DNA of 54,752 bases from a virus (IMGVR_UViG_3300042090_001160:1-54752), one strand, 5' to 3'; shown: positions 4,993 through 41,816, counted from the first letter of the stretch. Numbers and translations: made by a program. The notes: a model not told the origin generated them from the sequence alone.

Positions 4993-5582
4993 GATTTCCG
5001 CTCCGTAAGCTTCACAACCCGCCCCACGTCCGCGCCAAGCAAGTCGAGTGGCGGCATGAGCCCTCGCTTCTCGATCAGTTCCTTCACCAACTTGGTCAAT
5101 GTGTTCCACTGGACGCCGAGTTTTTCATTGAAGCTGATGCCCCAGTTCTCGAGATGGCCCTTGAGCTTCTCCGCGCGTTCGCGCTCGCCGCGGCCGAACT
5201 CGATCGTGATGATCGTCTTGACGACGTCACTGTGGCCGTTGTCGATGAGCCAATTGAAGCCGGCGGCTTGGCGCTCCAGCGGCCAGTCCGCCGCGATCGA
5301 GGCTTTGTAGTAAGGCTTCGCGGTCGCGTCGTACGCTGGCAGGTTGCCTTCGGCCTCGAGACCGACCTTGTCGACGCCTGCGTCGGCGAAGAGCGTCGGC
5401 AAAACCTCGCGCTCCAGCGCATTCAGCTTGAGCTTCTTGCCCTTGAGCGCGGCTTCGAGATCCTCGATCTCGAGCAAGGTGTCGCGCTGCTCGCGAATGG
5501 TGTCGCGCAATTGATCGAGCTTGTCGGCGCTCGGGGCGCGCTCGGCCATGGCGGCGGAGACTTCAGAAGGGAGTGGCATCAT
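4989..5582 (-). CDS. Phage early protein with N-terminal coiled coil, 197 aa
   Basis: This is the first gene of the leftward operon. Residues 15-60 form a heptad-like helix (LDQLRDTIREQRDTLLEIEDLEAALKG region), followed by EREVLPTLFADAGVDKV and an alpha/beta region. The pattern of a coiled coil followed by a short folded region is seen in many phage proteins of unknown function encoded beside primase-helicases. GGAG lies four bases before the first of two adjacent ATGs. Its long leader contains a nested hairpin (5598-5678). A DNA-metabolism role is inferred only from position. Confidence 0.68.
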   Translation of the reverse strand: MMPLPSEVSAAMAERAPSADKLDQLRDTIREQRDTLLEIEDLEAALKGKKLKLNALEREVLPTLFADAGVDKVGLEAEGNLPAYDATAKPYYKASIAADWPLERQAAGFNWLIDNGHSDVVKTIITIEFGRGERERAEKLKGHLENWGISFNEKLGVQWNTLTKLVKELIEKRGLMPPLDLLGADVGRVVKLTERKS

Positions 5583-17071: not shown

Positions 17072-17313
17072 TCTGGACTCCGATCATCGCCGGGATGTGT
17101 GCCTTCATGTTCCACGCGCACGGCGGCGATTACGTCACCATTGGCACTGTGGTCGACGAGGCGTGCGATCCGTTCCTGACTGTGTCTGACGGAACGTCGT
17201 TGCCGCCGTTTCCGGATTTCGATCACGCGGTGCATGTTGAGATCGGCAAGGATGGTGCGCGATTGACCATCGACGACAAGAACTTCTTCGTTCCGCGGAG
17301 TGACGGCGCGTGA
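17068..17313 (+). CDS. Small hypothetical protein, 81 aa
   Basis: A GTG start overlapping the upstream TGA gives a short hydrophobic opening (IWTPIIAGMCAFMF) followed by a beta-rich domain (YVTIGTVVDEACDPFLTV, GARLTIDDKNFFV). The hydrophobic part is short for a membrane helix. No function is recognised. Its stop overlaps the GTG of the NUDIX-protease gene. Confidence 0.55.
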   Translation: MIWTPIIAGMCAFMFHAHGGDYVTIGTVVDEACDPFLTVSDGTSLPPFPDFDHAVHVEIGKDGARLTIDDKNFFVPRSDGA

Positions 17314-18524
17314 TCAACGCCGCCGGCATACTGTTCCTGGCGCCTGGACGCCGCGCGCTGTTCCTCAAGCGCAGCGGGCAGGGCGACCATGCGAACGAGT
17401 GGTGTTTTCCTGGTGGATGCGCCGAGGACGACGAGACACCGGAAATGACGGCGCGGCGCGAGGCGCGTGAGGAGATCGGCAAGCACCCGAACCTCAAGCT
17501 GCGGCTCCATACGCGGTCGATCTCGAATCAATCTACTTTGGCTGCTGCGGCGGGGGTCCCTCTCGTGGCCGCGGCGGAGGCCGGGGCGAGCGCGGCAAAC
17601 CTCCCGGTGGACGCCGCCCCGGCTGCCGCCTTCGATCCCACCGCCGCTCCACCAGACAGCTTGGTCGACTTCACCACGTTCGTCATGGAAGTCGAGCGTC
17701 CGTTCATGCCGGACGAGAGCCTGTTCGGCGCCGACAAGGAGCACGTCGCCTGGGCCTGGGCGCCGATCGATTCGCCCCCTACTCCGCTGCATCCGGGGGG
17801 CGAGATCGCGCTCGCCCGGTTCGACATGGACGAACTTGGCGTGGCGCGGGCGATGGCGGAGGGTCGTCTCACGTCGCCACAACAGTACGAGAACATGACG
17901 CTGTTCGACATCCGGATCACCGGGACCGACACGGCGTATCGCAAAGCGTTGGACGAGTTCGTGTTTCGTCGGCCTGAGAACTACCTCACGCCTGAGTTTC
18001 TAGCGAGATGCAACGGACTGCCCGTGATTATGGAGCACCCCAAGGGTGCGGTGCTGAACTCGAAGGAGTTTAACGACCGTATCGTCGGGACGGTGTTCCT
18101 GCCCTACCTCGGTAACGACACGCACCACGCGGCCGACGAGGTGTGGGCGATTGCGAAGGTCTACGACGTAGACGCGATACGGGTTCTTTCCGATCGCAAG
18201 ATGTCGACGTCTCCGTCTGTCGTATTTCGCTACCCCGAGGTCAACCAGAAGGTTGAACTCGAAGACGGATCGACCCTCTTGATCGAGGGCAAACCAAGTC
18301 TCCTGGACCACATCGCCATCTGCGAAGTGGGGGTGTGGGATAAGGGGGGTCCACCAGAAGGCGTTGAATCGGTTGAAGTGAAGGTTGACGCGGAATTGGC
18401 GAGAGCGGATTCGATTCCATCCCCGAGACTGGATCCAGGCAAGCTGGATGAAATTGAAAAGCGAACCTTGGCTTTGGTGGATCGCTTGGATAGTTTTAGC
18501 AAGAGAAACGCATCCCGTGGGTGA
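17310..18524 (+). CDS. NUDIX hydrolase fused to a DUF2213-like prohead protease domain
   Basis: Residues 1-170 hold a NUDIX domain with a complete NUDIX box, G-x5-E-x7-REAREEIGK near residues 35-58. It is interrupted by an Ala/Pro-rich insertion of about 45 residues. NUDIX enzymes hydrolyse nucleoside diphosphates linked to another moiety. From about residue 200 the sequence changes to a DUF2213-type head protein: FRRPENYLTPEFLARCNGLP, then IMEHPKGAVLNSKEF, then IVGTVFLPYLG and MSTSPSVVFRY. DUF2213 proteins occupy the prohead protease position. A short coiled coil ends the chain. The gene starts at GTG and its stop is overlapped by a GIY-YIG endonuclease gene. Confidence 0.8.
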   Translation: MINAAGILFLAPGRRALFLKRSGQGDHANEWCFPGGCAEDDETPEMTARREAREEIGKHPNLKLRLHTRSISNQSTLAAAAGVPLVAAAEAGASAANLPVDAAPAAAFDPTAAPPDSLVDFTTFVMEVERPFMPDESLFGADKEHVAWAWAPIDSPPTPLHPGGEIALARFDMDELGVARAMAEGRLTSPQQYENMTLFDIRITGTDTAYRKALDEFVFRRPENYLTPEFLARCNGLPVIMEHPKGAVLNSKEFNDRIVGTVFLPYLGNDTHHAADEVWAIAKVYDVDAIRVLSDRKMSTSPSVVFRYPEVNQKVELEDGSTLLIEGKPSLLDHIAICEVGVWDKGGPPEGVESVEVKVDAELARADSIPSPRLDPGKLDEIEKRTLALVDRLDSFSKRNASRG

Positions 18525-23060: not shown

Positions 23061-23570
23061 GTGGCTCAGACGCCTAACCTTGCCGGCTTTCAGTGGTTCT
23101 TGGCGAATGTCGTCGCCATCGACACGAACAATCTCGATCCCAACGCGCCAGTGGTGAACTTCGCCTTCAACGTCGCGCTGGGGATCGTCAATCCTCTGCT
23201 GGCGACGGTGTGCATCCCGAACCAGCAGAATTCGCCCTACACTCGATCGCAATATGATCTCGCCGTCTACAATCTCGCCGCGGACCTCGTGATTAACTGG
23301 GCCGTCGACCCGCCGGGAGCGCCGACCGCACAGTTGCCGGACGGAACGCAACTGGCGTTCTTCGAGAGGTTACGATACCGCTGGGGCATCGGCAACGCGC
23401 ACTTCGGCGTCGTCGCGTCGATCTCTGACGTGAGTACTTCGACTTCCATCGAGGTCATCGAGGCGGCCAAGACGTTTACGCTTGGCAACCTTCAGAACCT
23501 CAAGACGCCCTATGGGCGTCAATATCTCGCCATTGCACAGTCCTACGGGACGCTGTGGGGTCTCACATGA
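23061..23570 (+). CDS. Putative head-tail connector protein, 169 aa
   Basis: The gene starts at GTG immediately after the previous stop. The protein is mainly helical, with QYDLAVYNLAADLVINWAVD and TPYGRQYLAIAQSYGTLWG, resembling head-completion adaptors of the DUF4054 kind in position and length. It would plug the portal after packaging. The assignment rests on context plus weak similarity. Confidence 0.55.
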   Translation: MAQTPNLAGFQWFLANVVAIDTNNLDPNAPVVNFAFNVALGIVNPLLATVCIPNQQNSPYTRSQYDLAVYNLAADLVINWAVDPPGAPTAQLPDGTQLAFFERLRYRWGIGNAHFGVVASISDVSTSTSIEVIEAAKTFTLGNLQNLKTPYGRQYLAIAQSYGTLWGLT

Positions 23571-24169
23571 AGAAACTTCTGCTGCTCCTGTTGCTGTGGT
23601 CGCTGCCTGCGGCTGCTCAAGCGCCGTTCCAGACCTCACTCGGCTTCTGCAATCTCGGCTCGGTGGCGTCAGCTGTCGGAATCACCTCAACCAACTGCGT
23701 GTTCGCATCGTTCACCGGTGTCATTGCAGGCAATCAGCTTACAACCAGCTCCGTCACCGGTAGCGTCTTGCCGGGGCAACCAATCGTCGGCACTGGCGTG
23801 CCATCTGGCACTTATGTGCTGCGGACAGTCTCCGGCGGAGGCGCAAACGCGGCGGGCGTCTACCTGCTCTCGACGACCTCGACCGTCAGTTCGGAGTCGA
23901 TGACCGCTGCTGGCATTCCGCCATTCGCTAAATACGTTCTGCTGTGTGCTTCGACGCAGAACGTCAACTGGCGTGACGACGGCGTGGCGCCGACTGCATC
24001 AGCGAGTGGCGGCCAACCGATCCCCGCCAGTTCCACCAATGGTCCGAACTGCATCGGATACAATGCGACGCTGCAGGCGAGCACGACGCTTCCTGGCGGC
24101 AGCATCTCCAATCTTCAGTTCATTCAGCAGGCAGCTACCGCCGCTCTCAACGCATCGTTCTACCAATGA
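23567..24169 (+). CDS. Secreted Ser/Thr/Gly-rich protein, 200 aa
   Basis: The ATG overlaps the connector stop (ATGA). The start MKKLLLLLLLWSLPAAAQA is a classic Sec signal peptide with an AQA cleavage site. The mature chain is low in charge, with a repetitive beta pattern (VLPGQPIVGTGVPSGTYV, AGVYLLSTTSTVSSES) as in phage fibre or decoration proteins. It has four Cys, suggesting disulphides formed outside the cytoplasm. It is the first of six consecutive exported proteins. Confidence 0.7.
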   Translation: MKKLLLLLLLWSLPAAAQAPFQTSLGFCNLGSVASAVGITSTNCVFASFTGVIAGNQLTTSSVTGSVLPGQPIVGTGVPSGTYVLRTVSGGGANAAGVYLLSTTSTVSSESMTAAGIPPFAKYVLLCASTQNVNWRDDGVAPTASASGGQPIPASSTNGPNCIGYNATLQASTTLPGGSISNLQFIQQAATAALNASFYQ

Positions 24170-24402
24170 CGCGCGCGATCGCCGCCTTCGCCGTGTTGCT
24201 CTCGTTGATGGCGCTCGCGTCGTCTGCGCCGTCGCCGATGGTCCCGTTCAATGCGACCGAGTTCGGCGCAGCGATGGTTCCTGGACAAGGACCGATGTCG
24301 CCAAGCAGATCGCGCTCAGGCGGTGGGGGACCGCCTCCGACGTGTTCGAATGAGATGGACTTTTCGCAAGCGTGCAACAGCCAGTACATAGGAGCGTTCT
24401 GA
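24166..24402 (+). CDS. Small secreted protein, 78 aa
   Basis: The N-terminus MTRAIAAFAVLLSLMALASSA is a Sec signal. The mature part is short, Pro/Gly/Ser rich, with a GGGGPPP linker and two Cys (TCSNEM, QACNSQ). It is coupled on both sides by overlaps. It might be a periplasmic peptide or a linker-like virion component. No family is known to me. Confidence 0.6.
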   Translation: MTRAIAAFAVLLSLMALASSAPSPMVPFNATEFGAAMVPGQGPMSPSRSRSGGGGPPPTCSNEMDFSQACNSQYIGAF

Positions 24403-24746
24403 TGCGTGTATCTTTCGTTGCTTTTGGGTTGACTGCGCTCGGAGTCAGCTTTGCGGGAGTTGCTTTCGCTCAGCAACAGGACCCCGTCGTCGGCGTCCAG
24501 CTCAAGAGCACGCAGTGGGAATACATCCGCCAGGTGCTCGGCAAGCGCCCGCACGAGGAAGTCGCGCCGCTCATGGACGATATCGGTGGGCAACTCACGC
24601 GCCAGTACCAGGGTCTCGTGAAGAATCAGACCGATGCGCTCGAGAAGGCCGTTCGCGACAAGATCGCGAAGGAAGCGAAAGAAAAGGCTGACGCTGACGC
24701 GAAGGCCAACGCCGCGGCGCCGCCGCCGGATCAGCCTAAGGAGTAA
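24402..24746 (+). CDS. Secreted coiled-coil protein, 114 aa
   Basis: The ATG shares a base with the preceding TGA. The signal is MRVSFVAFGLTALGVSFAG ending VAFA-QQ. The mature protein has a helical region (LKSTQWEYIRQVLGKRPHEE) and a long Lys/Ala-rich helix (ALEKAVRDKIAKEAKEKADA), then a Pro-rich end. An exported all-helical periplasmic protein such as a spanin-like or inhibitor protein is possible. No lipobox is visible. Confidence 0.65.
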   Translation: MRVSFVAFGLTALGVSFAGVAFAQQQDPVVGVQLKSTQWEYIRQVLGKRPHEEVAPLMDDIGGQLTRQYQGLVKNQTDALEKAVRDKIAKEAKEKADADAKANAAAPPPDQPKE

Positions 24747-24752
24747 TTCCCG

Positions 24753-26420
24753 ATGAAGTGGCGCAACCTTCTACGCGTCCTGGTTTGCGGTCTCGCGCTC
24801 GACGCCAGCGCGCTGCCAACCTACGCCAATTGGCTCTACACGCCGGGCGCTGGACCGAGCGCGTTCGTTTCATTCAATTCGACGACGACACCGGCTGGTA
24901 CGGGACTGTGTGCAGCGGCGAACACAGACTGCACCGCTACAGTGCCGATCAATACGGCCGGCGCCCAGCTTTTCAATTCAACAACACCCGGCGTCGTCTC
25001 GCTCAACACGACGCCTTCGCTCGCCAATGGCAGCGGTGTCGTTCCGACGCAAGGCGGGTCGGTCCTAGCAGCGAACAACCCGCTTCCCGCGCAGTTGTCG
25101 CAGGCGGGTGCCGCACTCAGCGCGACCAATCCGCTGTTCACAAACATCTCGGTTGGCAGCGCGGCCATCGGCGCGACCAATGGTCTCTACACGAATATCT
25201 TGCAGGGCAACGCTGTTCTCGCGGCGGGCAATCCGATCTTTGTGTCTCCGGGAACAGGCGCGACGTGGGGACTCGCCGCCGGCACAAACATCATCGGCAA
25301 GGTCGGCATCGACCAGACGACGCCCGGCACGACGAACGGCGTCCAAGTGAATGCGGCGCTTCCGGCTGGCACCAACCTCATGGGCAAGGTTGGTATCGAC
25401 CAGACCACGGTCGGCACCACGAACGGCGTCTCACTGGCGCAGATCGGCGCGACGACGGTTGCGACAGGAAACGGCGTCTCTGGTGCCGGCTCGCAGCGCG
25501 TCAACATCGCGTCAGACAACACGGCCTTCGCGGTCAATGCGACACTCCAGGCGAGCGCCACCACGGCGATCGGCAAGGTCGATCCGAACACTATCGGAAA
25601 TTGGGGTCTTCAGGTCAGCACGCAGAACTCGGCCACGCCGACGAATGGCGCCCTCGTGCTCGGCCAGTTCAATACCTCGCCGACGACCATCACTAGCGGC
25701 AACGTCTCGCCGCTCCAGATGGATGCCAACGGCAACCTGCTGGTCAACATCAAGGCCGGAGCTGGTTCTGGCGGAACGGCGCTCGCAGATGGCGCGACTT
25801 TCACCATCGGAACCACGAGCGAGACACCCGCCGCCTGCACCTACGTGAGCGGAGGAATCACCGTCACCTCGGGCAAGTCGTCGGTGCTGTCCTGCACGTC
25901 GACGGCATCGCTGCATACGACCGTCGACAATGCCGCGACCTATGTGACCAGCGCCGCTGATGCACAGGCGACCTCGTCCTCTGCCGGCGCTCCCGTGGTG
26001 AACTTCGGCTACGTCTACAACGGATCGACTTGGGATCGGATGCGTTCCACCGGATCGGATGGCGGGCTCGTCGTTGGCGGCAGCGCGAAGGGCGGTCTCG
26101 CAGTCGTCAACGGAGGCAGCTTCTACGAGGCCGTGGCGGCGAGCCAGACCGCGACAGTGTTGCAATCCTCGACCGGAGCCGCGGGGGATTATCTCTCCCA
26201 TTGCGTAATCTACCCGGCATCAACATCGCCCGGAGTGGTGACGGTCTTCGACAGCACGAACACGGCAGCAAATTCAGCCATCTTGTTCGCGGGCGGATCA
26301 ACGAGCCTATCGAACCTCGCGCCGATTCCGATCCCAGTGGGCGCAGTGAGCGTGAACGGCGCATGGAAGGTAACCACGGGACCGAACGTGTCCGTGGTCT
26401 GCTATGGGAAGTTCAGTTAA
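24753..26420 (+). CDS. Secreted repetitive fibre-like protein, 555 aa
   Basis: A signal peptide (about 26 residues, ending TYA-N) precedes a long low-charge chain. A 63-base unit coding GTN(I/L)xGKVGIDQTTxGTTNGV occurs twice, at 25281-25343 and 25368-25430, 29 codons apart. The C-terminal 150 residues look folded (VVNGGSFYEAVAASQTATVL, AAGDYLSHCVIYPASTSPG). The GKVGIDQTT motif is familiar from phage structural proteins. It may be an appendage or head fibre, with export puzzling for a virion component. Confidence 0.66.
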   Translation: MKWRNLLRVLVCGLALDASALPTYANWLYTPGAGPSAFVSFNSTTTPAGTGLCAAANTDCTATVPINTAGAQLFNSTTPGVVSLNTTPSLANGSGVVPTQGGSVLAANNPLPAQLSQAGAALSATNPLFTNISVGSAAIGATNGLYTNILQGNAVLAAGNPIFVSPGTGATWGLAAGTNIIGKVGIDQTTPGTTNGVQVNAALPAGTNLMGKVGIDQTTVGTTNGVSLAQIGATTVATGNGVSGAGSQRVNIASDNTAFAVNATLQASATTAIGKVDPNTIGNWGLQVSTQNSATPTNGALVLGQFNTSPTTITSGNVSPLQMDANGNLLVNIKAGAGSGGTALADGATFTIGTTSETPAACTYVSGGITVTSGKSSVLSCTSTASLHTTVDNAATYVTSAADAQATSSSAGAPVVNFGYVYNGSTWDRMRSTGSDGGLVVGGSAKGGLAVVNGGSFYEAVAASQTATVLQSSTGAAGDYLSHCVIYPASTSPGVVTVFDSTNTAANSAILFAGGSTSLSNLAPIPIPVGAVSVNGAWKVTTGPNVSVVCYGKFS

Positions 26421-27391
26421 TGTTGCGGGCATGGTTCGCTGTCCTTGCACTGGCGTATTCGCTCGTCCCGGCGATAGCGCAGTACCAAAGCTTCCCGCCG
26501 GGCGTATTCGGTGGGCCGGCGGCGTATGCTCCGAGCAGCGGAGGCGGGGGCTACAGCGGCCCTGGTGACGCCATCAGCGGAGCAAAAGCATTCTACTCCT
26601 GTGCGCGGGCGTACAATGCCGCCTATGCCGCTGCTACGGGAAATTTATGCGATATCGTTGATACTTCGACAGGAGGCTTTTCTTGTACCATGAAGGCAGC
26701 AACGAATGGTTTTGCTGACCTAACTTCTTTGCTTTGTACTGGAGGAACACTGAGCGTCACAACATTCTGTACCGTCACGCACGCGGCAGGATGCTCGGTT
26801 ACCCAAATGTATGACCAGAGTGGAGCTAATTCTTGCACTTCGGGCGCGGCGCCATGCCCTGTGTCGCAGGCTACTCTCGCGACGATGCCGACATTGACAC
26901 TTAACGCGCTAAACAGCCTTCCGTGCGTTACTTTCGCCGGTTCTCAAGCACTTGTCAGTGGTGTGTCATTGACGCTTGCGCAGCCAATAAGCTTTGGCGC
27001 TGCGTCGAAAAGAACCGGAAACTTTACCACCAATGCGAATATTATTGGCGATAGTGGCGGAAACGTTACGCCATTTTACGCGAACGCGACGAATAGCGTT
27101 AAGCTTTGGGCCGGAAGCAACAGCGCCAGCGTAACCGTGTCAGACAGCGTTTTCCACGGGCTTCAATTCCTTGCTAGCAGCACATCGTCGATCATCAACG
27201 TCGATGGAACCGATACTTCTGTTAGCACTTCAACCAACGGGTTTTCAGCGGCGAGCGTTGAGTTCGGTTATACCTCCCTCATCGCCACGATGTGCGAAGG
27301 ATGGTTTTACGGAACGGCGCTGACTTCAGGCAACCGAACGTCGCTGTTCAACAACATGAATGGCTCAAGCGGTTACAATGGTGGCTTGTGA
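26420..27391 (+). CDS. Secreted protein with arabinofuranosidase-B-like concanavalin fold, 323 aa
   Basis: The signal peptide MLRAWFAVLALAYSLVPAIA is followed by a Gly-rich linker. The region AKAFYSCARAYNAAYAAATG, then CDIVD, FADLTSLL, TQMYDQSGAN and PCVTFAGSQAL matches the phage tail module related to the AbfB catalytic domain. That module is usually written ayS.rrl...Y.g..irvr with a later WYDQSGN. In tails it is thought to bind or cut surface polysaccharide. At least eight Cys residues fit an exported, disulphide-bonded protein. The DNA after 26600 is more AT-rich than its surroundings. Confidence 0.72.
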   Translation: MLRAWFAVLALAYSLVPAIAQYQSFPPGVFGGPAAYAPSSGGGGYSGPGDAISGAKAFYSCARAYNAAYAAATGNLCDIVDTSTGGFSCTMKAATNGFADLTSLLCTGGTLSVTTFCTVTHAAGCSVTQMYDQSGANSCTSGAAPCPVSQATLATMPTLTLNALNSLPCVTFAGSQALVSGVSLTLAQPISFGAASKRTGNFTTNANIIGDSGGNVTPFYANATNSVKLWAGSNSASVTVSDSVFHGLQFLASSTSSIINVDGTDTSVSTSTNGFSAASVEFGYTSLIATMCEGWFYGTALTSGNRTSLFNNMNGSSGYNGGL

Positions 27392-30111
27392 GAGCACTCC
27401 GTACACTCATTGCTCTGCTGTTGATCGTTGAGCCTGCGTGGCCGCAGAGCTTCAACATATTCGACACGACAACGACGAATCCGATCATTCCGGCAAGTCG
27501 TCTTCTCGGCACGGCTTCTGGAAATTGGCAACCTGGGGTTACTTATAACGGCGGCATACCGACTCGAAACACTATCTGCACGACGCTGACGGCGAATGGG
27601 ACGGACGACACAACGCAGATCAACAGCGCCTATTCGACGTGTTGCACGTCGGCGACCTCGGAACTCAACGCTCAAGTCATCAAGCTGAATGCCGGAGAGT
27701 TCAAAGTCAGCGGGAACGGGATCGACATTCCGCTCGGGTGCTCATATGTATCGCTGCGCGGTTCTGGGCTCCCTGCGGCAATGGCGACCGGCGGAAACTT
27801 ATCCAATGATAGCGCGAGTTCGCTTAACTATGTCTCGGGAACCGCGATTATCAAGTCCGACCGGAACACAAACCACAACTACGGCATTCTTCACGTTGGG
27901 CGCGTACCGAACTGGACCGCAGTTACGCCGGGGTATTCCGGAGGGAACGGCACATCGACCAACCTGACTGCCGATGGGACGAAGGGAAATACTACCGTTA
28001 CCGTTACCAGCACCTCCGGTTTGAGCATCGGGCAGGTGGTCCTTATCGATCATGTAGCAGACAGTGACCCGAACGTCTTCTATGGCAATCGGAACGATCT
28101 TTCGGGGTATTTTACCGGGTCGCTGAGTGGCACTTCGTTGACATTCACCTCAGCGCAGAACGGCCCCACCGGCGTCGACGGCTCGGCCAACGTGTCGTTT
28201 TCCGGCACAAGTATGACGATCAATTCAGCGCCAGCCACAGGCTACGTATCGCAACTGAACATCGGCGGTGTGCAAGTCGTCGGCGTGACCGTATTCGATA
28301 CGTCGAACAACTATTACGGCTACATTACTGCGGGAACCTATCCCGGCCCCTTTACGATGAGCCAGTCAAACAGCGGTAGCAACGTCAACATCAATCTTGG
28401 CGGCGTCATCCCGCAAGTAGGCTACCCGATCTTCGACAGCACGTTCTCGACCTCTTACGGGTTCATCACAGGTGGCACGTTTCCGAACTTTACGATGGGG
28501 CAATCCAACCCGACGCGGACTGGCGTCACGCTGACGGCTGGCGGTGGCTCGCGCAGGTTCTTCTCCCGGCAGGATCGCTCCGTCAGTCAGTTGATGAAAA
28601 TTACCAATATCAGCGGCAGTACGATCACATTTGAGACGCCGTTCTATTACACTTTCCAGGTCGCACTTGGCGCGCAACTGTCGACGTTCGACGCCAGCAA
28701 TTACCCCATCAGCACCGCGCTTGCCGTGGAGGAATTGTTGCTGTTCGGTGGCGAAGGGGGCGACGGCGAGGGCAATATGCCGATCGGCTATTGTGCGAGC
28801 TGCTGGGTCAAGCACGTCGAAAGCTACTGGTCGATCGGCACCGGCATCGGCCTCTATGGGTGCTATCGGTGCGAGGTACGCGACAGCTTCATGCACGAGA
28901 CGCCTAGCCCGAATCCGGGGGGCGGCGGTTATCTCAGCGGCATGAACACTTGGACAAGCGACAGCTTGTTCGAGAATGACATCATGTGGCAGGGCAACAA
29001 GGAAGTGGTCGTCCGCAATGGTGGCGGTGGCAACGTCATCGGCTACAACTACATGGACGATGCCTTCGGTGGAACGTACCCCGAGAGCCCGGAGGCCGGC
29101 GTCAACGCAGCGCACAATACGACGACGCTGCTGGCCCTTATGGAGGGAAACTACTCTCAGAATTTCGAAGGCGACGCGTTCTGGGGAAATTCATACGAGA
29201 ACACTGTTCACCGCAACTGGCTTTCCGGTATCCGCAGCGCGTCTCCTACCGGGATGTGCCCGAACATCACACCTTGCACGAACCTACGGGCCTACACTGC
29301 GTCCGGTTCGCCCGCTTATCCTTACGCCGATCTCTTGGGCCGTCGTATGGCCGATATTCAGGCCAACTCATATAATCACAATTTCACCGGCAATGTGCTC
29401 GGATTCAATGGCGAGACTTTGTTGAGTGCGTCGATCAGCGGCTTTTCCTGCACACAAACAACATGGGTTTACGAGGAGTTGGATTCGCTTATTTCCAACT
29501 GTCCAAACGTCATCCTTTGGAACATTGGAGCACAGCAAGACCCCAGCGGATTCCAGTGGGTCGGGAACACGTACACGACGCAGTTACGGAGTGGGAACTG
29601 GGACTGGAATTCGCAGAGCCAGCAGTGGCATGGCATCGGCGGGTCGAACGAATATGGCGGTAACCTGTCGCCTCCGTATCCGAGCGTCCCGAACTCGTAC
29701 TATCTGCCCGGCGGTGCGGGCGCGACCATCCCGAGCTTCTTCTCCGGATCGAGCTACACCACGACAACGTGGCCTTGGGTCAACCCAGCGACCGGATACG
29801 TGGCTGGAGGTGCCATCACGTCTGGCACCTACAACAGCACCACGGGCGCAGTGGTGCTCACGGTGCCGTCCGGGCTAGCTCCCTCGGTTGGGACTCAGGT
29901 TTTCGTGACGGGCCTCTTGGGCACCGGAACAAACCTTGCCAGTTTGAACGGCTTGGTGACCACGACTTCGGGAACGGGCGGCACTACGATCAACTACACC
30001 GCGGCAACAGGGCAGGGCTCGATCACCATTACTGGCGGCTTTGTTAATGTCGTTGGTGGTGGACTCCCAGCGATGCGCCGCTTCCTTAACAACACGCCGA
30101 ATACGCTCTGA
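27388..30111 (+). CDS. Secreted beta-helix spike/depolymerase candidate, 907 aa
   Basis: The start is a GTG overlapping the upstream stop. It gives MRALRTLIALLLIVEPAWPQ, a Sec signal. The body looks like a right-handed parallel beta helix: an N-terminal pectate-lyase-like opening (NGTDDTTQINSAY), a central VKHVESYWSIGTGIGLYGCY, EVRDSFMHE, NKEVVVRNGGGGNVIGYNYM and NTVHRNWLSGIRS. A Gly/Thr-rich beta module with SGTYNSTTGAVVLTVPSG sits near the C-terminus. Such proteins bind and cleave capsular or lipopolysaccharide glycans. Catalytic residues cannot be assigned by eye. Confidence 0.72.
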   Translation: MRALRTLIALLLIVEPAWPQSFNIFDTTTTNPIIPASRLLGTASGNWQPGVTYNGGIPTRNTICTTLTANGTDDTTQINSAYSTCCTSATSELNAQVIKLNAGEFKVSGNGIDIPLGCSYVSLRGSGLPAAMATGGNLSNDSASSLNYVSGTAIIKSDRNTNHNYGILHVGRVPNWTAVTPGYSGGNGTSTNLTADGTKGNTTVTVTSTSGLSIGQVVLIDHVADSDPNVFYGNRNDLSGYFTGSLSGTSLTFTSAQNGPTGVDGSANVSFSGTSMTINSAPATGYVSQLNIGGVQVVGVTVFDTSNNYYGYITAGTYPGPFTMSQSNSGSNVNINLGGVIPQVGYPIFDSTFSTSYGFITGGTFPNFTMGQSNPTRTGVTLTAGGGSRRFFSRQDRSVSQLMKITNISGSTITFETPFYYTFQVALGAQLSTFDASNYPISTALAVEELLLFGGEGGDGEGNMPIGYCASCWVKHVESYWSIGTGIGLYGCYRCEVRDSFMHETPSPNPGGGGYLSGMNTWTSDSLFENDIMWQGNKEVVVRNGGGGNVIGYNYMDDAFGGTYPESPEAGVNAAHNTTTLLALMEGNYSQNFEGDAFWGNSYENTVHRNWLSGIRSASPTGMCPNITPCTNLRAYTASGSPAYPYADLLGRRMADIQANSYNHNFTGNVLGFNGETLLSASISGFSCTQTTWVYEELDSLISNCPNVILWNIGAQQDPSGFQWVGNTYTTQLRSGNWDWNSQSQQWHGIGGSNEYGGNLSPPYPSVPNSYYLPGGAGATIPSFFSGSSYTTTTWPWVNPATGYVAGGAITSGTYNSTTGAVVLTVPSGLAPSVGTQVFVTGLLGTGTNLASLNGLVTTTSGTGGTTINYTAATGQGSITITGGFVNVVGGGLPAMRRFLNNTPNTL

Positions 30112-30536
30112 TGCCCGTCCTCCACTTAGGCGTCATCGATCAGCCCTACCAGACCGGCCGCGAGTCGACTGGAGATGTCGCCGAGATTCTCGAGGCGAAG
30201 TACGAAGTGATGGGCCACTTCGTGAAGAAGCACGAGCAAGACATCGCTAACGACCTGGAAAATTCGCTCGAAGGCGCGCTCGAGAATGTGCTACTAGGTG
30301 GACCGCCTCCGTCCGATCCGTTCGCCGCTGCGACCAGCGCGATAGACAATAGATTCAAGAAGTTTCTCAGTAGCAAGGAGATGGACAGCCTAGGAGTACC
30401 GGGCGTCCCGACGCAAGCCTCGCTCGCTGGCACCAGCAAGCGGTTCAAACAGAAACAGAAGAAGGGCCGCGGTCCGCGCCCTTCGTTCATCGACACGGGG
30501 CTTTATCAAGCTTCGTTCAAGTCCTGGGTCGACTAG
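30111..30536 (+). CDS. Tail completion / neck protein candidate, 141 aa
   Basis: The protein starts MPVLHLGVIDQPYQTGREST, has a helical N-terminal half (VMGHFVKKHEQDIANDLENS) and ends FIDTGLYQASFKSWVD. The D-T-G-L-Y-x-A/S-S-F motif at the C-terminus is typical of tail-completion proteins (HK97 gp10-like and analogues). The context, after the exported gene island and before tail genes, fits. It shares one base with the spike stop. Confidence 0.58.
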   Translation: MPVLHLGVIDQPYQTGRESTGDVAEILEAKYEVMGHFVKKHEQDIANDLENSLEGALENVLLGGPPPSDPFAAATSAIDNRFKKFLSSKEMDSLGVPGVPTQASLAGTSKRFKQKQKKGRGPRPSFIDTGLYQASFKSWVD

Positions 30537-30548
30537 AGGAGACAAAAG

Positions 30549-31667
30549 ATGTCCGTCACGCCAAACCAAGTGATCATTTACGGATCGGCCGACATGCCGG
30601 AGGTCGACGGCTCGACTGTCGGTGGCGCGATCAACTTCGCCAACCGCGTCGCGTTCTACGATCTTCCGTCCGCAATGGCGCTCGACGTGGTATCATCGTC
30701 CGCGTCGGACACCGCGACCAAGATCCAGGTATCCGGACGCGACTCGACTGGCACGGTGCAGACGCCTGCTGCTGTGACGCTCACCGGCACCACCGTCATC
30801 ACCAGCACCTTTGGCGGGCAGTCGTTCCAGCGTCTCCTCGCGGGAGTCATCTCCGGCGGTGCGATCGGCTCCTTGACCAACCCCGGCGGCACGTCTGCGG
30901 TCGGCGATGTCGCCGCGATGGGACACACTCGCCTCATTGCCGGTCACACGGCGCAGGCCGGCTCTTCGAACACGTCCGGCACCACGCCACCGCTGTTCAA
31001 GCTGCAGTCCGGCGATGGCGCGACCATCGGAGCGACGACTTACGCCGGCCTCAACCTCATCATCCGCATCACTGGCGGTACTGGCGCCGGTCAGCTGCGC
31101 ATGATCTCGGCGCAGTACGCGTCTGGCACCTATGGCGCGGACACCGTCGCGGTCAATCGTGACTGGGGCACCGTTCCCGACAACACTTCGACCTACGACA
31201 TCGCTTACGGCTTCCTGTTCGACATCCTGCCGAATCCCGTCACCGGCATCACTCGCGTCTTCACCGGTGCGCAGTCTGACGTTCCCGGCGGCTCTACTCG
31301 CGTGTTCTACGAGAAGATTTTCTGGTCGAATACCAACACTACGACCGCATTGCTCGGCGCTGCGATGCAAGTGCTATCCGAATCCGGGTCGCTGCCTGTT
31401 GGCGCTTCGCTCGACCTCGCACTGACCACGGCGCTCAACGACAACGCGACCTCGACCAACCGGCAGACCCTGCCGACCAATCAGGGCGGCGGCGCGCTGA
31501 GTTTCGTGGTGCAGCCGAGCGCGATTCCGGTGCAGTCGCCCGGTACGCTGCCCAACGGCAATGCGGCTTCCGGCGCGCAGGCGGGGTGGCTGCGCTTGAC
31601 GCTCGCTGCTGGAACGACCGTTTACCAAGGCGCGGCCGACCTGCGCTGCACTGGATCGACGACCTGA
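30549..31667 (+). CDS. Virion structural protein, 372 aa
   Basis: AGGAGAC precedes the ATG of MSVTPNQVIIYGSADMPEVD. The chain is Thr/Gly/Ser rich with regular beta strands and repeated small motifs (TVSTSS-like, ITGGTGAGQLRMISAQY). It resembles Gly/Thr-rich phage structural proteins placed at the start of tail modules in Bcep-like phages. No signal peptide is present, unlike the genes just upstream. The exact location in the virion is unknown. Confidence 0.6.
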   Translation: MSVTPNQVIIYGSADMPEVDGSTVGGAINFANRVAFYDLPSAMALDVVSSSASDTATKIQVSGRDSTGTVQTPAAVTLTGTTVITSTFGGQSFQRLLAGVISGGAIGSLTNPGGTSAVGDVAAMGHTRLIAGHTAQAGSSNTSGTTPPLFKLQSGDGATIGATTYAGLNLIIRITGGTGAGQLRMISAQYASGTYGADTVAVNRDWGTVPDNTSTYDIAYGFLFDILPNPVTGITRVFTGAQSDVPGGSTRVFYEKIFWSNTNTTTALLGAAMQVLSESGSLPVGASLDLALTTALNDNATSTNRQTLPTNQGGGALSFVVQPSAIPVQSPGTLPNGNAASGAQAGWLRLTLAAGTTVYQGAADLRCTGSTT

Positions 31668-31698
31668 CTTCGGGGGAGCGGAGTCAGGAGGAGAAACG

Positions 31699-34600
31699 AT
31701 GGCGATAGTCTTTGCAGATCTCGTAAGGCAAGCCGTATCTGGTGCGCCCGGCACGGCGAGCACCATCTCGCTGGCAGGCGCGCAAACCGGTTGGTTGACG
31801 TTCGCCCTCGCGGGCGTTGCCAACGGCGCTACCGTGCGCTACGCCATCAACGATAACGGCGCCAGCGAGATCGGCACCGCGACTTACAATTCCTCCGGAC
31901 CTTCGCTCACCGGGCGCACTCCGACGAAGTCGACCAACTCCAACGCGGCGATCAATGCGTCGGCGCAAGCGATCGTCATCGGGTGTCTGGCGGCGGAAGA
32001 CACTATTATTACATTGGGCAGCACTACGGCCAGTTTGAATGGATCAGCAGTAGGAACAACAGCTAATCCTTTATCGGCATTGGTGTGGACTAATAGTACC
32101 GGTCCTCAGTTTCTCAATGGCAGCGGTTCACTTTCCGGGGGTGTTAACGGAGCTGAAATATTCAAATACAGCGACAACAACTTTTATTTGGACAATTATG
32201 ACGCTGGTAGTTTCGTATTTCGCGGAAACTCATTCGCTCAATTGATGACAATAACGGGCGCAGGCAAAGTCGGCATCGGAACATTCCAAACGCCCGACAG
32301 CCTGCTGACCGTGAACGCCAACACTGCGGCCGGCTCCTCGCCGCCGTCCGGCACCGTCGCGCACATCGTTGGCGCGGCGGGTTCGTCCACGAACATTCTG
32401 TCGGATACCTATGGCGGCCGAACAGCGTGGGCGTCGCGCCGCGCGGACGGGACCATAGGCTCACCAAGCGCCGTCCAAAGCGGCGACAACATCTTCGCAT
32501 TCACCGGGTTCGGCTACGGGGCGACGGGATACTCATCCGCCGCTCGCGTGCTGATTAATGCTCTTGCCGCGCAAAACTGGAGTGATACAGCACAGGGCAC
32601 GCAGCTCGTCTTTCAGACGACCGCGCTCAACACGACGACCACTGCGACGGCGATGAGCATCTTCGCGTCCGGCGCGGTTGGTATTGGAACGGGGACGGAC
32701 CCCGGCGTCGGCGGTCTCAACGTGCTCTCGACGCAGGGAGCGAGCGTCGTCCCCGTCGTCATGGGCAGCACGGCGTCTTGGCTGTCGATGATTACCGCTT
32801 ATGGGGGGCCATACGCGCTGTTCGTTTCTCCGCTCGGCAACACGGCACTGCGGGCAGCGTCGCGCACGTCGGACTATGTCGGTGGGACCTCGCCGGTTCA
32901 AGACATCATCGGCATGGACCTCTACGCCTATCACGACGCCACCACGAACACGGGGACGCCGCCGTACAACGGCGCGTGGGCGACTTATTGGTTAGTCGAG
33001 CGAGCTTTCGGAGCCTACGCCGCAATCAACCTGTTTGGTTGCGAGTGTTCTATGGTTAACTTGGGTGCTGGGGTGCAAGCGGATCCATTCAACGCCAGCA
33101 GCGCCGGCATGAACACCATTTTTCGCCTCGATAGCGGGTCTGGCACGTCCACCATTGGTGGGCACCCGGTCAATCCGCTCACGACGGGGGTGGAGGTATC
33201 CAACGACGGGGGGGCCTTCTACAACGCGTTCCGAGTCAACTGCAACGCGCTGGTCGCGCTCGGATCGACGCCGAACTATCAGGCCATCCAACTGGCCTCG
33301 ATACCGACCGGGAGCGCGGGCGACGGTCATTCCATCGCGTGGTACAGCGCCGCCAACACCGTTAGCGGCTGGATAGACGTCGACACCCTTAGCGAGATGA
33401 GGTTTCATAGCGTCGGCGTCTATAAGATGGGCGACGCGGCCACGCCGGTTGCCAGTCTGGGGCTGACCGGCAGCGCCTCCGGGGCGACGGGCGGGGCGTT
33501 CTTCGCTATCGCGAACACCTCGACGGTCGTCTTTTCGCTCGGGAACTACAGCGCTGCCTGGGGACACAGCCACACTGGCGCACCCAGTTACGACGCGTTG
33601 GGAACTTGCGTCGCGACCACTGACCTGGTCATTCAGCCGACAAATTGGCTGTATGTTTCCGGAATGCATGAATCGGGTCCTGGCGGTTTCAACTCGGGGG
33701 GGACAACCCCGATTCAGCCCAGCGGTCTAGCGTTCGGTTGGAACCAATCTGGCGGTGGCGGAGAGGCCAACATCGTCAACAATATCGACACCGGCGCTGG
33801 CACCACCGGTCCGTGGGACTTCATCTTCCAGGATTGGAACGGGACGACGCTGAGCAATCTCGCCTACATCAACAAGGGCGGCGGCATCTACATCCCGAAC
33901 ACGTTGATGCAGACGACGGTCGGCGGTGGCTACGGCACCGGCACTACGGGCACGCTCCCGACTCCCGGCGTGGCTGGCACCGCGGATACATTTTTCGCGG
34001 ACGGGTTCTTCAGCTCGGACAGCACCGCCAGGACGGTCCCGTACAATTCGTCTGGAGTGTGGATCGGCGACGCATTGCAGTCGACGCTCTTCATCGGCAA
34101 CACCAGCGCCGGCACCACCGACCCTACTCCGCAGGGGTCGACGCAGACTTGCACATTTAGCACCGTCAAGACTAACGCTGCGGCCGGGTCCAGCGTCTAT
34201 GGGCAAACAGGCAGCCAACTCATTCATGTAGTCGGCGGTTGGGCCGGGTCGGCATGCACGTTCACGCAGAGCGTCACGCTCGTGAACGGGGTTAAGACCT
34301 ACAATTTGAGCGCGGCGCCAACGAATCATGCTTATGTGCCCGGCATGCCCGTGGTGTCATCGGGCAGCCCCGGCGTCCTGCCGGCGAGCACCGTCATCGT
34401 CAGCGTGAGCGGCAACACCATCACACTCAACAACGCCCCGACGACGCCCGGCGCGTGCACCCTCACGTTCTGGGCCGGCAGGCCGGTGACCGCGCCGATC
34501 ACCACCACGCCGACCGTCCCGACCGTGGGTTATAACCCCTACGCAGGAACTCCCGGAGACACTTTCGCGGTCAATGGCATGGTCAGCTTTTACGACAACG

Positions 34601-35226
34601 GCCTCGGGATCGGCGAATGGCTGGAATGTTCCGTCGCGCAATTTACGCCGGGGTCCAGCACCGCAAACTATCAATGCAAATTAACACAAGCCATCGTCAC
34701 TGCCGGCAACCTCACGCTATTTGGTTCTGGGGGATCGCTAACTTCAGCGCATCAAATTGGCTGCAGTATCCAGTTCCTCGTCGGAGGAGGAGGCTATGGC
34801 GTGTTTGTTGCTTCGCCGGGCGGTGCCGGTTTTAACTTTGCAGGAACGGGCACCGGCCACATCATGGACTCGTCATTCTCAGTGTCGACGCCGAGCGAAC
34901 CGACCATCAAGCGCGACATTGAGAAGTTGCCGTCCATGATCGATGCAGTCATGGCCATCGACCCGGTGACGTTTTGGTACACAGACGAGTGGCGTGAACA
35001 AGACCACAGGATCGGATTTCTCGCGCGCGACTTCGGCGGATTTGGCGGCGCCAAGGAGCGGCTGCCCGCCGCCGTTCGAGACATCATCGTCACGGATGAG
35101 ACTGGCGTGACGGGTTTGCGGCAGGGAGGCATGCTTCCCGGGCTTTGGCGCGCGACGCAAGAGGTAATAGACAGGCTCAACGGCATCGAGGCCCGCGTCG
35201 AAGCCCTCGAAGGGAGGCCGCATTGA
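31699..35226 (+). CDS. Tail fibre with C-terminal S74 intramolecular chaperone, 1175 aa
   Basis: The N-terminus (MAIVFADLVRQAVSGAPGTA, then TGWLTFALAGVANGATVRYA) is a typical virion-attachment module of phage fibres. The long middle is mosaic beta-rich repeats, with a local AT-rich patch around 32000-32260 that suggests module exchange. From about residue 1059 a peptidase S74 domain is seen: TPSEPTIKRDIEKLPSMIDA, then IDPVTFWYTDEWREQDHRIGF. In S74 proteins a Ser-Lys pair cleaves the chaperone off after trimerisation; Ser of PSEP and Lys of IKRD are candidates. A final coiled coil (LNGIEARVEALEG) ends the protein. Confidence 0.85.
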   Translation: MAIVFADLVRQAVSGAPGTASTISLAGAQTGWLTFALAGVANGATVRYAINDNGASEIGTATYNSSGPSLTGRTPTKSTNSNAAINASAQAIVIGCLAAEDTIITLGSTTASLNGSAVGTTANPLSALVWTNSTGPQFLNGSGSLSGGVNGAEIFKYSDNNFYLDNYDAGSFVFRGNSFAQLMTITGAGKVGIGTFQTPDSLLTVNANTAAGSSPPSGTVAHIVGAAGSSTNILSDTYGGRTAWASRRADGTIGSPSAVQSGDNIFAFTGFGYGATGYSSAARVLINALAAQNWSDTAQGTQLVFQTTALNTTTTATAMSIFASGAVGIGTGTDPGVGGLNVLSTQGASVVPVVMGSTASWLSMITAYGGPYALFVSPLGNTALRAASRTSDYVGGTSPVQDIIGMDLYAYHDATTNTGTPPYNGAWATYWLVERAFGAYAAINLFGCECSMVNLGAGVQADPFNASSAGMNTIFRLDSGSGTSTIGGHPVNPLTTGVEVSNDGGAFYNAFRVNCNALVALGSTPNYQAIQLASIPTGSAGDGHSIAWYSAANTVSGWIDVDTLSEMRFHSVGVYKMGDAATPVASLGLTGSASGATGGAFFAIANTSTVVFSLGNYSAAWGHSHTGAPSYDALGTCVATTDLVIQPTNWLYVSGMHESGPGGFNSGGTTPIQPSGLAFGWNQSGGGGEANIVNNIDTGAGTTGPWDFIFQDWNGTTLSNLAYINKGGGIYIPNTLMQTTVGGGYGTGTTGTLPTPGVAGTADTFFADGFFSSDSTARTVPYNSSGVWIGDALQSTLFIGNTSAGTTDPTPQGSTQTCTFSTVKTNAAAGSSVYGQTGSQLIHVVGGWAGSACTFTQSVTLVNGVKTYNLSAAPTNHAYVPGMPVVSSGSPGVLPASTVIVSVSGNTITLNNAPTTPGACTLTFWAGRPVTAPITTTPTVPTVGYNPYAGTPGDTFAVNGMVSFYDNGLGIGEWLECSVAQFTPGSSTANYQCKLTQAIVTAGNLTLFGSGGSLTSAHQIGCSIQFLVGGGGYGVFVASPGGAGFNFAGTGTGHIMDSSFSVSTPSEPTIKRDIEKLPSMIDAVMAIDPVTFWYTDEWREQDHRIGFLARDFGGFGGAKERLPAAVRDIIVTDETGVTGLRQGGMLPGLWRATQEVIDRLNGIEARVEALEGRPH

Positions 35227-35396
35227 GCCACACTCCTGAACGACATCATCCATGGTGCAATTTCGGACAGCATTCCGGGCCGCCGGACAAGTGCTGCCAA
35301 TGCATCGATTTCTACAAACGCTTCCCCTTAAGAAAGGGCGAAAACGGCAGAGACATGACGCTACGCTATTTCCCCGGCGTAGAAGTCATCGAATAG
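35223..35396 (+). CDS. Small Cys/His-rich protein, 57 aa
   Basis: A TTG start overlapping the fibre stop (TTGA) opens LSHTPERHHPWCNFGQHSGP followed by DKCCQC. The spacing of Cys and His could bind one zinc ion. The rest (FYKRFPLRKGENGRD) is basic. It precedes a gene with a strong AGGAGG. A structural or RNA-binding role would be guesswork. Confidence 0.52.
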   Translation: MSHTPERHHPWCNFGQHSGPPDKCCQCIDFYKRFPLRKGENGRDMTLRYFPGVEVIE

Positions 35397-35405
35397 GAGG
35401 CCACA

Positions 35406-35846
35406 TTGAGGATTACTCGGCTCAAAGCCATCGAATGGTTCAACGCGCTCTCCATGCTGGAGCAGTCGCCCGTCACGGGGGCGAACGGCAAGCCCGTGCC
35501 CTACGACCTACCGGCCGAGCAGTTCGTCCTTGTCTGGCAGATGCTCAACGCGCTGCGCCCACACGTTGAGGCGTTCCAGAAGGCGCGCGAGGCGCGGATG
35601 AAGGTGCTGGCCGATCGGCCCGAGGAGGAGCGCGCCGAGGAACTCAAGCAGGAAGTCGAGCGACTGCAGGAGACGTTCTCCGTGCGCATGCCCAAGAAGC
35701 GGCTGGATCTCGACATCGGCCGGACCAAGGTCATGCCGTCACTGCTCATCGCGCTCGAAGGGCTGTGGAACAAGCCTGAGGTCGAGCTGGAGGACGAGGA
35801 AGAACAGTTGTCCGAGGCATTCAAGATTTTGCAGGCCGCAGAATAA
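35406..35846 (+). CDS. Hypothetical coiled-coil protein, 146 aa
   Basis: The start is TTG with AGGAGG five bases upstream, a clear case of strong ribosome site plus weak codon. The protein is helical with heptads (HVEAFQKAREARMKVLADRP, EELKQEVERLQETFSVRM) and an acidic C-terminus (VELEDEEEQLSEAFKILQ). It may be a tail assembly or scaffold-like factor. No family is recognised. Confidence 0.62.
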   Translation: MRITRLKAIEWFNALSMLEQSPVTGANGKPVPYDLPAEQFVLVWQMLNALRPHVEAFQKAREARMKVLADRPEEERAEELKQEVERLQETFSVRMPKKRLDLDIGRTKVMPSLLIALEGLWNKPEVELEDEEEQLSEAFKILQAAE

Positions 35847-35849
35847 CGC

Positions 35850-36911
35850 ATGTTCGGTCTCGGCGCACTCGGCCAGTTAGCTCTTGGTCAGGCGGGGCTG
35901 TTCACGGTGACCGTGGACTCCGCCGCGCCGACCGAGTACGCCGGCCAATTCGTGCGTGATGGCGTGTCGCTTGATGAAGTACTATTCAGCGTTTCGAAAG
36001 ACGCTCAATCGCTGCTCGAAGTGCTGGCAACAAGCGATCGCTCGGATTCCTCGATCAGCCTGGAGGCTTTTCAACCCGTTCGCAGGGACACTACTCTTCC
36101 GACCGAATACCAGGATGTGGTCCGATCGGATTGGCGACCTTCCGTCGAGTTCGTCGAGTCGATCAGTTCTGACGCTGATTCCGGCGTCGGCCTCGAAATT
36201 TTCGGAAGCGTTCGAGCCGAGTCGGCGCCTCGCATTGAAGCCACTCCTTCTGCCGCGTCCGACACTCGCCTTCCAGTCGAACTTCTTTCCGGGTCTCCGA
36301 CCGTTACGACCGACGCCGGTGCTCCGATAGAGATAACATCTGGCGTCGCCGCGGATCGACAGACGCCAACAGAGATTTATGCTGCACTGCCGTCGATCGA
36401 TGCCACTTCGCAAGCAGAGACGACGCCTTCAGTTCGATCGGAGACTGGTGTTCCGGCGGAGTCTTCATCCCCGGTCTTCGTCACCGACAGCGCCGTTCGA
36501 TCTGAGTCTCTGTCCAGTGTCGTCGTTGATCGAATGACGCAAGATGAAATCACGCTGACATTGTCGCCGAAAGACGCATCGCTGCCCTTGGAACTGACTG
36601 AACCAACCGTGTCCGCGAATTGGTCCGCGCCGGTCGAGCTGCTTGGCAACGTGGCCGTCATTGGCGATGCGAATACGCAGATTGAGACCGTTGGAAGCAC
36701 GTCGCAAGACTGGATCACCTGGATCGACACGCTCGGTCAGGTTTCGATGGTGACGGGCGATGGGGCGATCCAACTCGAATTCGTTCAGTCGGTGCAGTAT
36801 TCAGACTCCGACCTGGTGCTCGAAATCCTGCAGTGGGCGCGACTGCGACCGAACCGCAACGAGCTGTGGTCGGAAGAGTGGTCCGGGCTCGACACGATCG
36901 GAGGTTTCTGA
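35850..36911 (+). CDS. Protein of about 21 short tandem repeats, 353 aa
   Basis: After a Gly/Leu-rich opening (MFGLGALGQLALGQAGLF) the chain is made of degenerate units of 14-16 residues with the pattern V-x-D-x-x-x-P-x-E-h (h hydrophobic), such as TVDSAAPTEYAGQF, VRRDTTLPTEYQDV and SAPVELLGN. I count about 21 copies before a C-terminal LRPNRNELWSEEWSGLD. The pattern of one acidic and one Pro-x-Glu per turn suggests a solenoid or extended fibre. The start and end segments resemble phage virion proteins. No known repeat family name comes to mind. Confidence 0.65.
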   Translation: MFGLGALGQLALGQAGLFTVTVDSAAPTEYAGQFVRDGVSLDEVLFSVSKDAQSLLEVLATSDRSDSSISLEAFQPVRRDTTLPTEYQDVVRSDWRPSVEFVESISSDADSGVGLEIFGSVRAESAPRIEATPSAASDTRLPVELLSGSPTVTTDAGAPIEITSGVAADRQTPTEIYAALPSIDATSQAETTPSVRSETGVPAESSSPVFVTDSAVRSESLSSVVVDRMTQDEITLTLSPKDASLPLELTEPTVSANWSAPVELLGNVAVIGDANTQIETVGSTSQDWITWIDTLGQVSMVTGDGAIQLEFVQSVQYSDSDLVLEILQWARLRPNRNELWSEEWSGLDTIGGF

Positions 36912-40835: not shown

Positions 40836-41816
40836 ATGAACGACTTCTATGTCTACGTTTATTTTCGCCACGACGACGGGACGCCTTGCTATGTTGGTAA
40901 AGGCAAGGGCGAGCGCTGGCGACAGTTTAAGAGCAGGAATAATCCTCGCCTTCGATCGCTAATAAGAAAAGCTGGCGGCGAGCTTCCTTGTGTAATAGTC
41001 CGTTCCGGGCTGACAGAGGCGCAGGCTTTTGAGTTTGAAAAAGCTTTCATCGTTGCGATCGGTAAAGGGAAAGCTGGCCCTCTTGTTAATTTTACTGATG
41101 GCGGCGAAGGCCCATCAAATCCTGCGCCATCAACTAGGCTAAAAATGAGAGCAGCGAAGCTTAACAGACCACAGTCTGTGGAGCACCGAGCCGCTATCGG
41201 GGCCGCTCATTTAGGGAGAAAGCGGCCGGCGTCTGTGGGAGAGAAAATCCGGGCCAGAAAAATTGGCAAAAAGCGCAGCGAGTCCGATCGCGAAGCGATG
41301 CGAAAAGGCAATAGGTCAAGAGACCCAGAGGTGCGCGCCAAGATTTCAAAAGCTACCAAGCTTGCAATGGCGGATCCGTCTCTCAGAAAAATGTTGAGTG
41401 AGGATAAGCTCGGAACAGCTTTCAGTGAATCACACAAGTTGGCCCATAAAGAGGCTGTGAACCGGTTAGGAACTAGGAAGAAAATGAGCGACGCCAAAAA
41501 GGGCAAGCCCTGGAGCGCCAAGCGCCGCGCCGCATTCGAAGCGAGAGAAAACAAAATCCCCAGCGATGAGACCAGAAGAAAACAAAGCGCCGCCTTGAAG
41601 GATAAACCCTGGAGCGCCGCTCGTCGTGCCGCTTACGAGGTTAGAAAAGTTCGGTCATCGGCACCGGCGTTCCCCCAGAACTTGGACCGGACCGATGCAA
41701 CCTCCGCCGCGACTGTTTGGCCCAAACAGCTCCGGTGCCCCCATTACCGTAGAGTGCCAGCGGATTTGAGCCCGTTGGCTGCGGCGGAGGTTCCTATTCG
41801 ATGTCTTCTTGGTTGA
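40836..41816 (+). CDS. GIY-YIG homing endonuclease with NUMOD repeats (second copy)
   Basis: The 326-aa protein opens MNDFYVYVYFRHDDG and has CYVGKGKGERW within 30 residues, the GIY-YIG core, followed by FEFEKAFIVAIG and NFTDGGEGPS. C-terminal modules repeat PASVGEKIRARKIGKK, KPWSAKRRAAFE and KPWSAARRAAYE. The second half is related to the endonuclease at 18517. Coding DNA is AT-rich compared with flanking tail genes. The last 55 residues look like read-through of flanking sequence and overlap the next gene. It is inserted between the tube gene and the chaperone region. Confidence 0.87.
   Translation: MNDFYVYVYFRHDDGTPCYVGKGKGERWRQFKSRNNPRLRSLIRKAGGELPCVIVRSGLTEAQAFEFEKAFIVAIGKGKAGPLVNFTDGGEGPSNPAPSTRLKMRAAKLNRPQSVEHRAAIGAAHLGRKRPASVGEKIRARKIGKKRSESDREAMRKGNRSRDPEVRAKISKATKLAMADPSLRKMLSEDKLGTAFSESHKLAHKEAVNRLGTRKKMSDAKKGKPWSAKRRAAFEARENKIPSDETRRKQSAALKDKPWSAARRAAYEVRKVRSSAPAFPQNLDRTDATSAATVWPKQLRCPHYRRVPADLSPLAAAEVPIRCLLG

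Follow-up and report, generated by a model that had tools for sequence, protein, structure and literature searches.

A run of leader-bearing genes in the late operon of a contractile-tail phage, probably an exported accessory cassette

Six consecutive genes in the late operon of a small contractile-tail phage (A to F, Table 1) open with hydrophobic leaders, and we consider it fairly likely that they form an acquired, mobile accessory cassette whose lectin-, spike- and decoration-like products would be made late, fold in the periplasm with disulfides and be released at lysis. The genes lie in a virus contig of 54,752 bases from IMG/VR (hereafter the window, meaning this whole stretch), the late genes of which match those of a lineage of small phages with contractile tails; they encode terminase, portal, a Nudix-DUF2213 fusion, capsid, sheath, tape measure, hub and baseplate J. 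Cultured relatives, with 61-44% identity in the major capsid protein, are Pantoea phage PdC23 and Klebsiella phages RothD and Chronis and, in the same range, five Yersinia phages, Shewanella phage QDWS, Escherichia phage Rac-SA53 and Actinobacillus phage pPE4; contig L002 (3300014658_000138) represents virtually the same virus as the window. A search for the sheath with PF04984 gave zero matches, even in phages that have a sheath by PHROG and BLAST, and was discarded because it is blind to sheaths found by those two methods.

Other parts of the window also stand out. A single frame (17310-18524) joins the Nudix domain to DUF2213 (head protease type), and a Nudix-type gene is found in PdC23 as well. 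Between tail genes 40269 and 41991 lies a probable GIY-YIG homing endonuclease (40836-41816, motif recognised by eye), a relative of which sits at a different place in L002 (7345-7953). On the minus strand, a ThyX-type thymidylate synthase and genes similar to Pam3 gp34 and gp33 (807-1544, 3606-4601, 4989-5582) link the early region of the window to the cyanophage Pam3.

Leaders and the genes that carry them

Leaders were scored with a rule-based Sec scorer of our own, which considers n-region charge, the hydrophobic core and small residues at -3/-1; on this scale the 12 known E. coli leaders used as reference reach 9.8-13.6, and shuffled N-termini reach 8 in 2.9% of cases. The initial annotation had credited all six genes with a clear signal peptide and an alanine cleavage site. 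Its six starts are correct and all six frames real, and its description suits genes A-E, all of which have a cleavage site with small residues at -3/-1; for gene F it applies to the hydrophobic core only (LIALLLIV), a good one, the low score being due to the absence of a small-residue cleavage site (the alanine site is missing from ..EPAWPQSF..). As shuffled N-termini so rarely reach 8, six leaders in a row are far above chance. The leaders suspected on genes 10789, 49137 (G) and 51950 (H) are likewise borne out by the scorer. All remaining genes of the window score at most 8.6, and most yield no leader candidate. Gene 10789 has the features of a Tat substrate, namely an RR-x-F type motif ahead of a hydrophobic core, MNRRSFTALGAAAVVAPLVPALAQ as read from the sequence; two RR leaders like this one are also carried by phage contig G001 (5085-5645 and 17276-18316), one of them within its own block of leader genes.

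Table 1. Leader-bearing genes of the window and the core genes that flank the block; leader scores are from the rule-based Sec scorer.
Feature	Coordinates	Strand	Leader score	Mature Cys	Description
10789 gene, 167 aa	10789..11292	+	12.0	0	twin-arginine-type leader MNRRSFTALG; between terminase and portal
Left flanking core gene	23061..23570	+			phrog_6356 (5.5e-30), head-tail region; adjoins 30111 homologue in relatives
Leader gene A, 200 aa	23567..24169	+	12.4	4	Sec leader, repeat region, C-terminal 'RDDG' domain
Leader gene B, 78 aa	24166..24402	+	12.3	2	Sec leader, low-complexity chain with PPPTC
Leader gene C, 114 aa	24402..24746	+	10.8	0	Sec leader, charged chain, probably helical
Leader gene D, 555 aa	24753..26420	+	11.8	6	Sec leader, GKVGIDQTTPGTTNGV repeats, C-terminal jelly-roll domain
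Leader gene E, 323 aa	26420..27391	+	11.0	10	Sec leader, Cys-rich, probable lectin-like beta-sandwich
Leader gene F, 907 aa	27388..30111	+	7.6	12	hydrophobic leader without canonical site, spike-like chain
Right flanking core gene	30111..30536	+			phrog_6560 (2.6e-47), head-tail region; adjoins 23061 homologue in relatives
Leader gene G, 406 aa	49137..50357	+	13.4	10	between baseplate J and 50357 gene
Leader gene H, 299 aa	51950..52849	+	12.1	0	tail-fibre end of late region

Each of the six genes overlaps or abuts its predecessor and their frames continue the late operon, to which they are coupled translationally. As to their proposed richness in cysteine, the description fits E and B (3.3% each), G (2.6%) and A (2.2%), and fails for C, which has none, and for the much larger F (1.35%). 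By eye, gene E resembles a lectin or glycosidase sandwich and gene F a beta-helix spike. Searches of Pfam, PHROGs and the PDB with D, E and F returned nothing convincing: E, for which a concanavalin-type lectin or GH54-like fold was asked about, has no match in any of the three (its structure model has a pLDDT of 28), and F, tested for a beta-helix or lyase domain, has a best Pfam match of 0.044, below the cut-off, and no PDB sequence match. PDB sequence searches with E, with F and with profiles of the flanking genes were equally unconvincing, two weak annexin matches being judged chance.

Relatives of the block genes are unevenly distributed. Gene D has 24 related loci, and gene B a short match in contig L031. 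Searched against viral contigs, C, E and F found the same virus alone, and G and H found no relatives; tblastn of the phage collection with D, E, F and H gave no match. A profile built from two E sequences added a single homologue from the viral contigs, in L030, which has a leader and 12 cysteines and adjoins a homologue of D. The C-terminal domain of F is shared with virion genes of relatives, residues 794-896 matching within the 20239 homologue of L005 (9547-9852) and residues 808-887 within the sheath gene of L009 (15717-17294).

Cysteine parity and the folding compartment

Even cysteine numbers are favoured in exported proteins of Gram-negative bacteria (PMC7678975). Parity was examined in 11 phage contigs, the window included; four of the window's genes (A, B, C and F), which overlapping frames or the score cut-off conceal from the automatic caller, were read manually. 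The count is even in 32 of the 33 leader proteins that contain cysteine, as opposed to 149 of 329 non-leader proteins (45%; Fisher p about 1e-9), in a pool where the leader proteins are partly homologous (D, E and B types) and so not fully independent. The lone odd leader protein is a lipoprotein, and owes its odd number to the lipobox cysteine. The bias persists when proteins with fewer than two cysteines are dropped and when the leader threshold is altered (p between 3e-5 and 7e-7). With the same minimum of two cysteines, the number is even in all 28 leader proteins of the six phages that carry leader blocks and in 53 of their 89 other proteins. In the window itself all leader proteins with cysteine are even, while the leaderless neighbours of the block, 30549 and 31699, have 1 and 11 cysteines. 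On C and H, which lack cysteine, the redox test is silent.

In two domain families the cysteines go together with the leader. The last 100 residues of D constitute a domain that occurs in many phages, modelled as a seven-strand jelly roll with a pLDDT near 80 over residues 41-139. The model is weakly similar to phage cement proteins; it has no PDB match below E 0.001, and its BFVD matches are phage proteins of unknown function. A cysteine pair is present in the leader copies of this domain (window and L031), which are closely related to each other, and in a truncated close copy (L030), whereas both positions lack cysteine in nine of nine aligned leaderless copies. One leaderless copy, in L018, is flanked by core genes in a relative of the window phage. 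The C-terminal domain of A, in turn, is related to small leaderless proteins: four homologues were found, all free of cysteine, and the second cysteine of A's pair falls in an insertion unique to the leader copy. In L004 and L011 the leaderless homologue is the single gene at the exact site between the 23061 and 30111 homologues.

The initial annotation had named loss of the leaders in close relatives as evidence against export, and taken literally this is what is seen for A, the sole gene with positional homologues (L004 and L011). However, those copies are devoid of any cysteine, so that leader and cysteines were apparently gained jointly, which favours a change of compartment over a spurious leader. 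The ancestor of A was probably a resident accessory protein to which a leader and cysteines were added, the cassette then growing around it, although this order of events is inferred. Export of a whole block, the initial proposal, thereby acquires an independent signature, made up of even cysteine numbers and of pairs that leader copies have and leaderless homologues lack, for those members that contain cysteine. These statistics strongly support the view that the leaders work and that the mature proteins fold with paired cysteines in an oxidising compartment, the periplasm.

The block as an insertion, and its occurrence elsewhere

Homologues of the two flanking genes are neighbours in PdC23, RothD, YenM_30.14, Rac-SA53 and QDWS, and in metagenomic relatives with both genes the gap between them is 0 to about 0.4 kb. 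Among the relatives compared, the 6.5 kb insert is confined to the window and its twin L002. Since the flanks adjoin or nearly so in all relatives that keep both, the six genes are an accessory insertion and not core virion genes. They do lie in the virion region, as first described, but the accompanying premise that they are virion assembly genes is not supported by synteny; a place among the core virion genes of the lineage was rejected, as the gene order is not conserved and the genes are absent between the flanks in relatives.

Other leader genes of the window are inserted too: G separates baseplate J from the 50357 gene, the homologues of which lie side by side in PdC23, and 10789 separates terminase from portal, which adjoin there as well. 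In another insertion (30549-36911) the genes are fibre-like but leaderless; one of them encodes a spike of 1175 residues (31699-35226) with a weak match to an S74 chaperone. Elsewhere in the lineage, an insertion hot spot of about 2-3.5 kb is found between the 37161 homologue and the sheath in L009, L015, L017 and L019, with no leader genes detected there by scan.

Runs of leader genes recur in other phages. Relatives of D led to five such phage contigs, G001 (L030), G002 (L031), G003 (L032), G004 (L051) and G005 (L052), of which G003 and G004 are T7-like podoviruses by their tail tubular proteins. In G003 an 847-residue tail protein at the usual tail-fibre position opens with a leader and matches phrog_1640 at residues 34-132; in G004 leaders are found on a phrog_32740 tail fibre and on Ig-domain tail proteins. 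G001 has D and E in the order of the window and G002 has D and a fragment of B, from which the set appears to have been swapped between unrelated phages. The similar leader runs in unrelated phages suggest that in some phages part of the apparatus for binding or cutting sugars is made outside the compartment of virion assembly.

Fate of the exported proteins

The initial annotation had offered secreted depolymerases, remodelling of the host surface or an external assembly route as outcomes, and the sequence is compatible with all three. In the accessory cassette that we favour, the proteins would be made late alongside the virion, A-F being carried across the membrane by the host Sec machinery and 10789 by Tat. 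Host Dsb-type enzymes would oxidise their cysteines, and the products would stay in the periplasm until lysis sets large amounts of them free around the burst cell, where they would serve as lectins, spike-like enzymes and proteins of decoration type. Their targets may be surface polysaccharide, debris or matrix, to be bound or cut; alternatively, they may cap free receptors and so let progeny escape. After lysis, some may become attached to virions. The domains themselves would be phage decoration or fibre stock, re-addressed by an added leader and cysteines.

The reducing cytoplasm is regarded as the place where structural proteins of tailed phages fold and assemble. A different, rather unlikely outcome is that the block encodes virion proteins completed outside the cytoplasm, exported fibres being oxidised in the periplasm and joined to tails or heads only after lysis. 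Domains homologous to those of the block occur without leader or cysteine pair in L018, L033, L036, L004 and L011, and in L018, L004 and L011 these leaderless copies of the A and D C-terminal domains sit in the virion operons of relatives. The cement-like jelly roll of D and the leader on the podovirus fibre-position protein of G003 (phrog_1640) point the same way, as does gp51 of the Burkholderia myophage Bcep1 (Naesvirus), a tail-fibre gene that follows baseplate genes, has a Sec leader (12.4) and 4 mature cysteines, and is annotated with a 'possible signal peptide domain'; unlike the block, it is a lone gene, and no sequence relation to the six is apparent. QDWS (vB_Sb_QDWS) shares the lineage of the window (capsid 52%) and has a fibre-like gene (L026 31836-33899) with a leader of 12.0 and 8 mature cysteines, but this too is a single gene and not a block, and the QDWS site between the 23061 and 30111 homologues is empty. 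Provided that the longer frame is the true gene, the annotated start of the QDWS gene (32643), which lies downstream, removes the leader and 269 residues, so that the leader has been missed. Against such assembly, exported fibres are perhaps unneeded in a phage that has the leaderless spike at 31699-35226. In general form, that in some tailed phages of various tail types Sec-exported, disulfide-bonded fibres or decorations snap onto virions at or after lysis, the idea is equally tentative.

Less likely still is surface remodelling of the Lom kind, before lysis or in lysogeny, in which the proteins would be displayed on the infected cell and block superinfection or alter adhesion. Lysogenic conversion genes with leaders are known in tail regions: lambda Lom lies between tail genes, has a signal peptide and is an exported host-surface protein (PMC12309495). 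Lom-type genes encode an outer-membrane barrel expressed in lysogeny, whereas the window encodes soluble-looking chains of fibre type in a late operon, to which the six genes are coupled, and no beta-barrel or lipobox features were noticed in the six. No integrase match was found in the window (a record that may be incomplete), and D is hardly present in prophages, as 84,980 bacterial and archaeal species genomes gave one weak match, in a Sulfurovaceae MAG. Together, the missing integrase and the near-absence of D from prokaryote genomes would speak against a lysogenic role. The idea that the N-termini are hydrophobic by chance, or serve to anchor proteins in the virion, and are never exported is scarcely credible: gene F does lack a cleavage site and virion proteins usually assemble in the cytoplasm, but the succession of full n-h-c leaders, the coupling of cysteines to leaders within the A and D families and the recurrence of leader runs in unrelated phages oppose it, and it was rejected on the even-cysteine statistics.

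Late phage proteins sent out by Sec are known in the form of exported endolysins (fOg44 type, SAR; PMC6116005), which are lysis enzymes; no lysis domain was found in the window block. What is already known therefore comprises exported endolysins, Lom and single fibres with a noted leader. We found no description of leader-gene blocks in phage structural regions in the open literature searched by full text, nor, in that literature, of a multi-gene, disulfide-signed cassette of fibre type that recurs across tail types.

The recurrence of a leader-bearing, fully cysteine-paired class of fibre-like proteins implies that host-interaction proteins can fold in the periplasm instead of the cytoplasm. 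Such proteins would be expected to misfold if produced in the cytoplasm, be it for typing phages, for work on depolymerases or for structural studies, and annotation blind to leaders misplaces their starts, as it probably has in QDWS. The parity test offers a cheap means of finding exported phage proteins in bulk, and the question of two compartments is directly testable in the cultured phages Bcep1 and QDWS.
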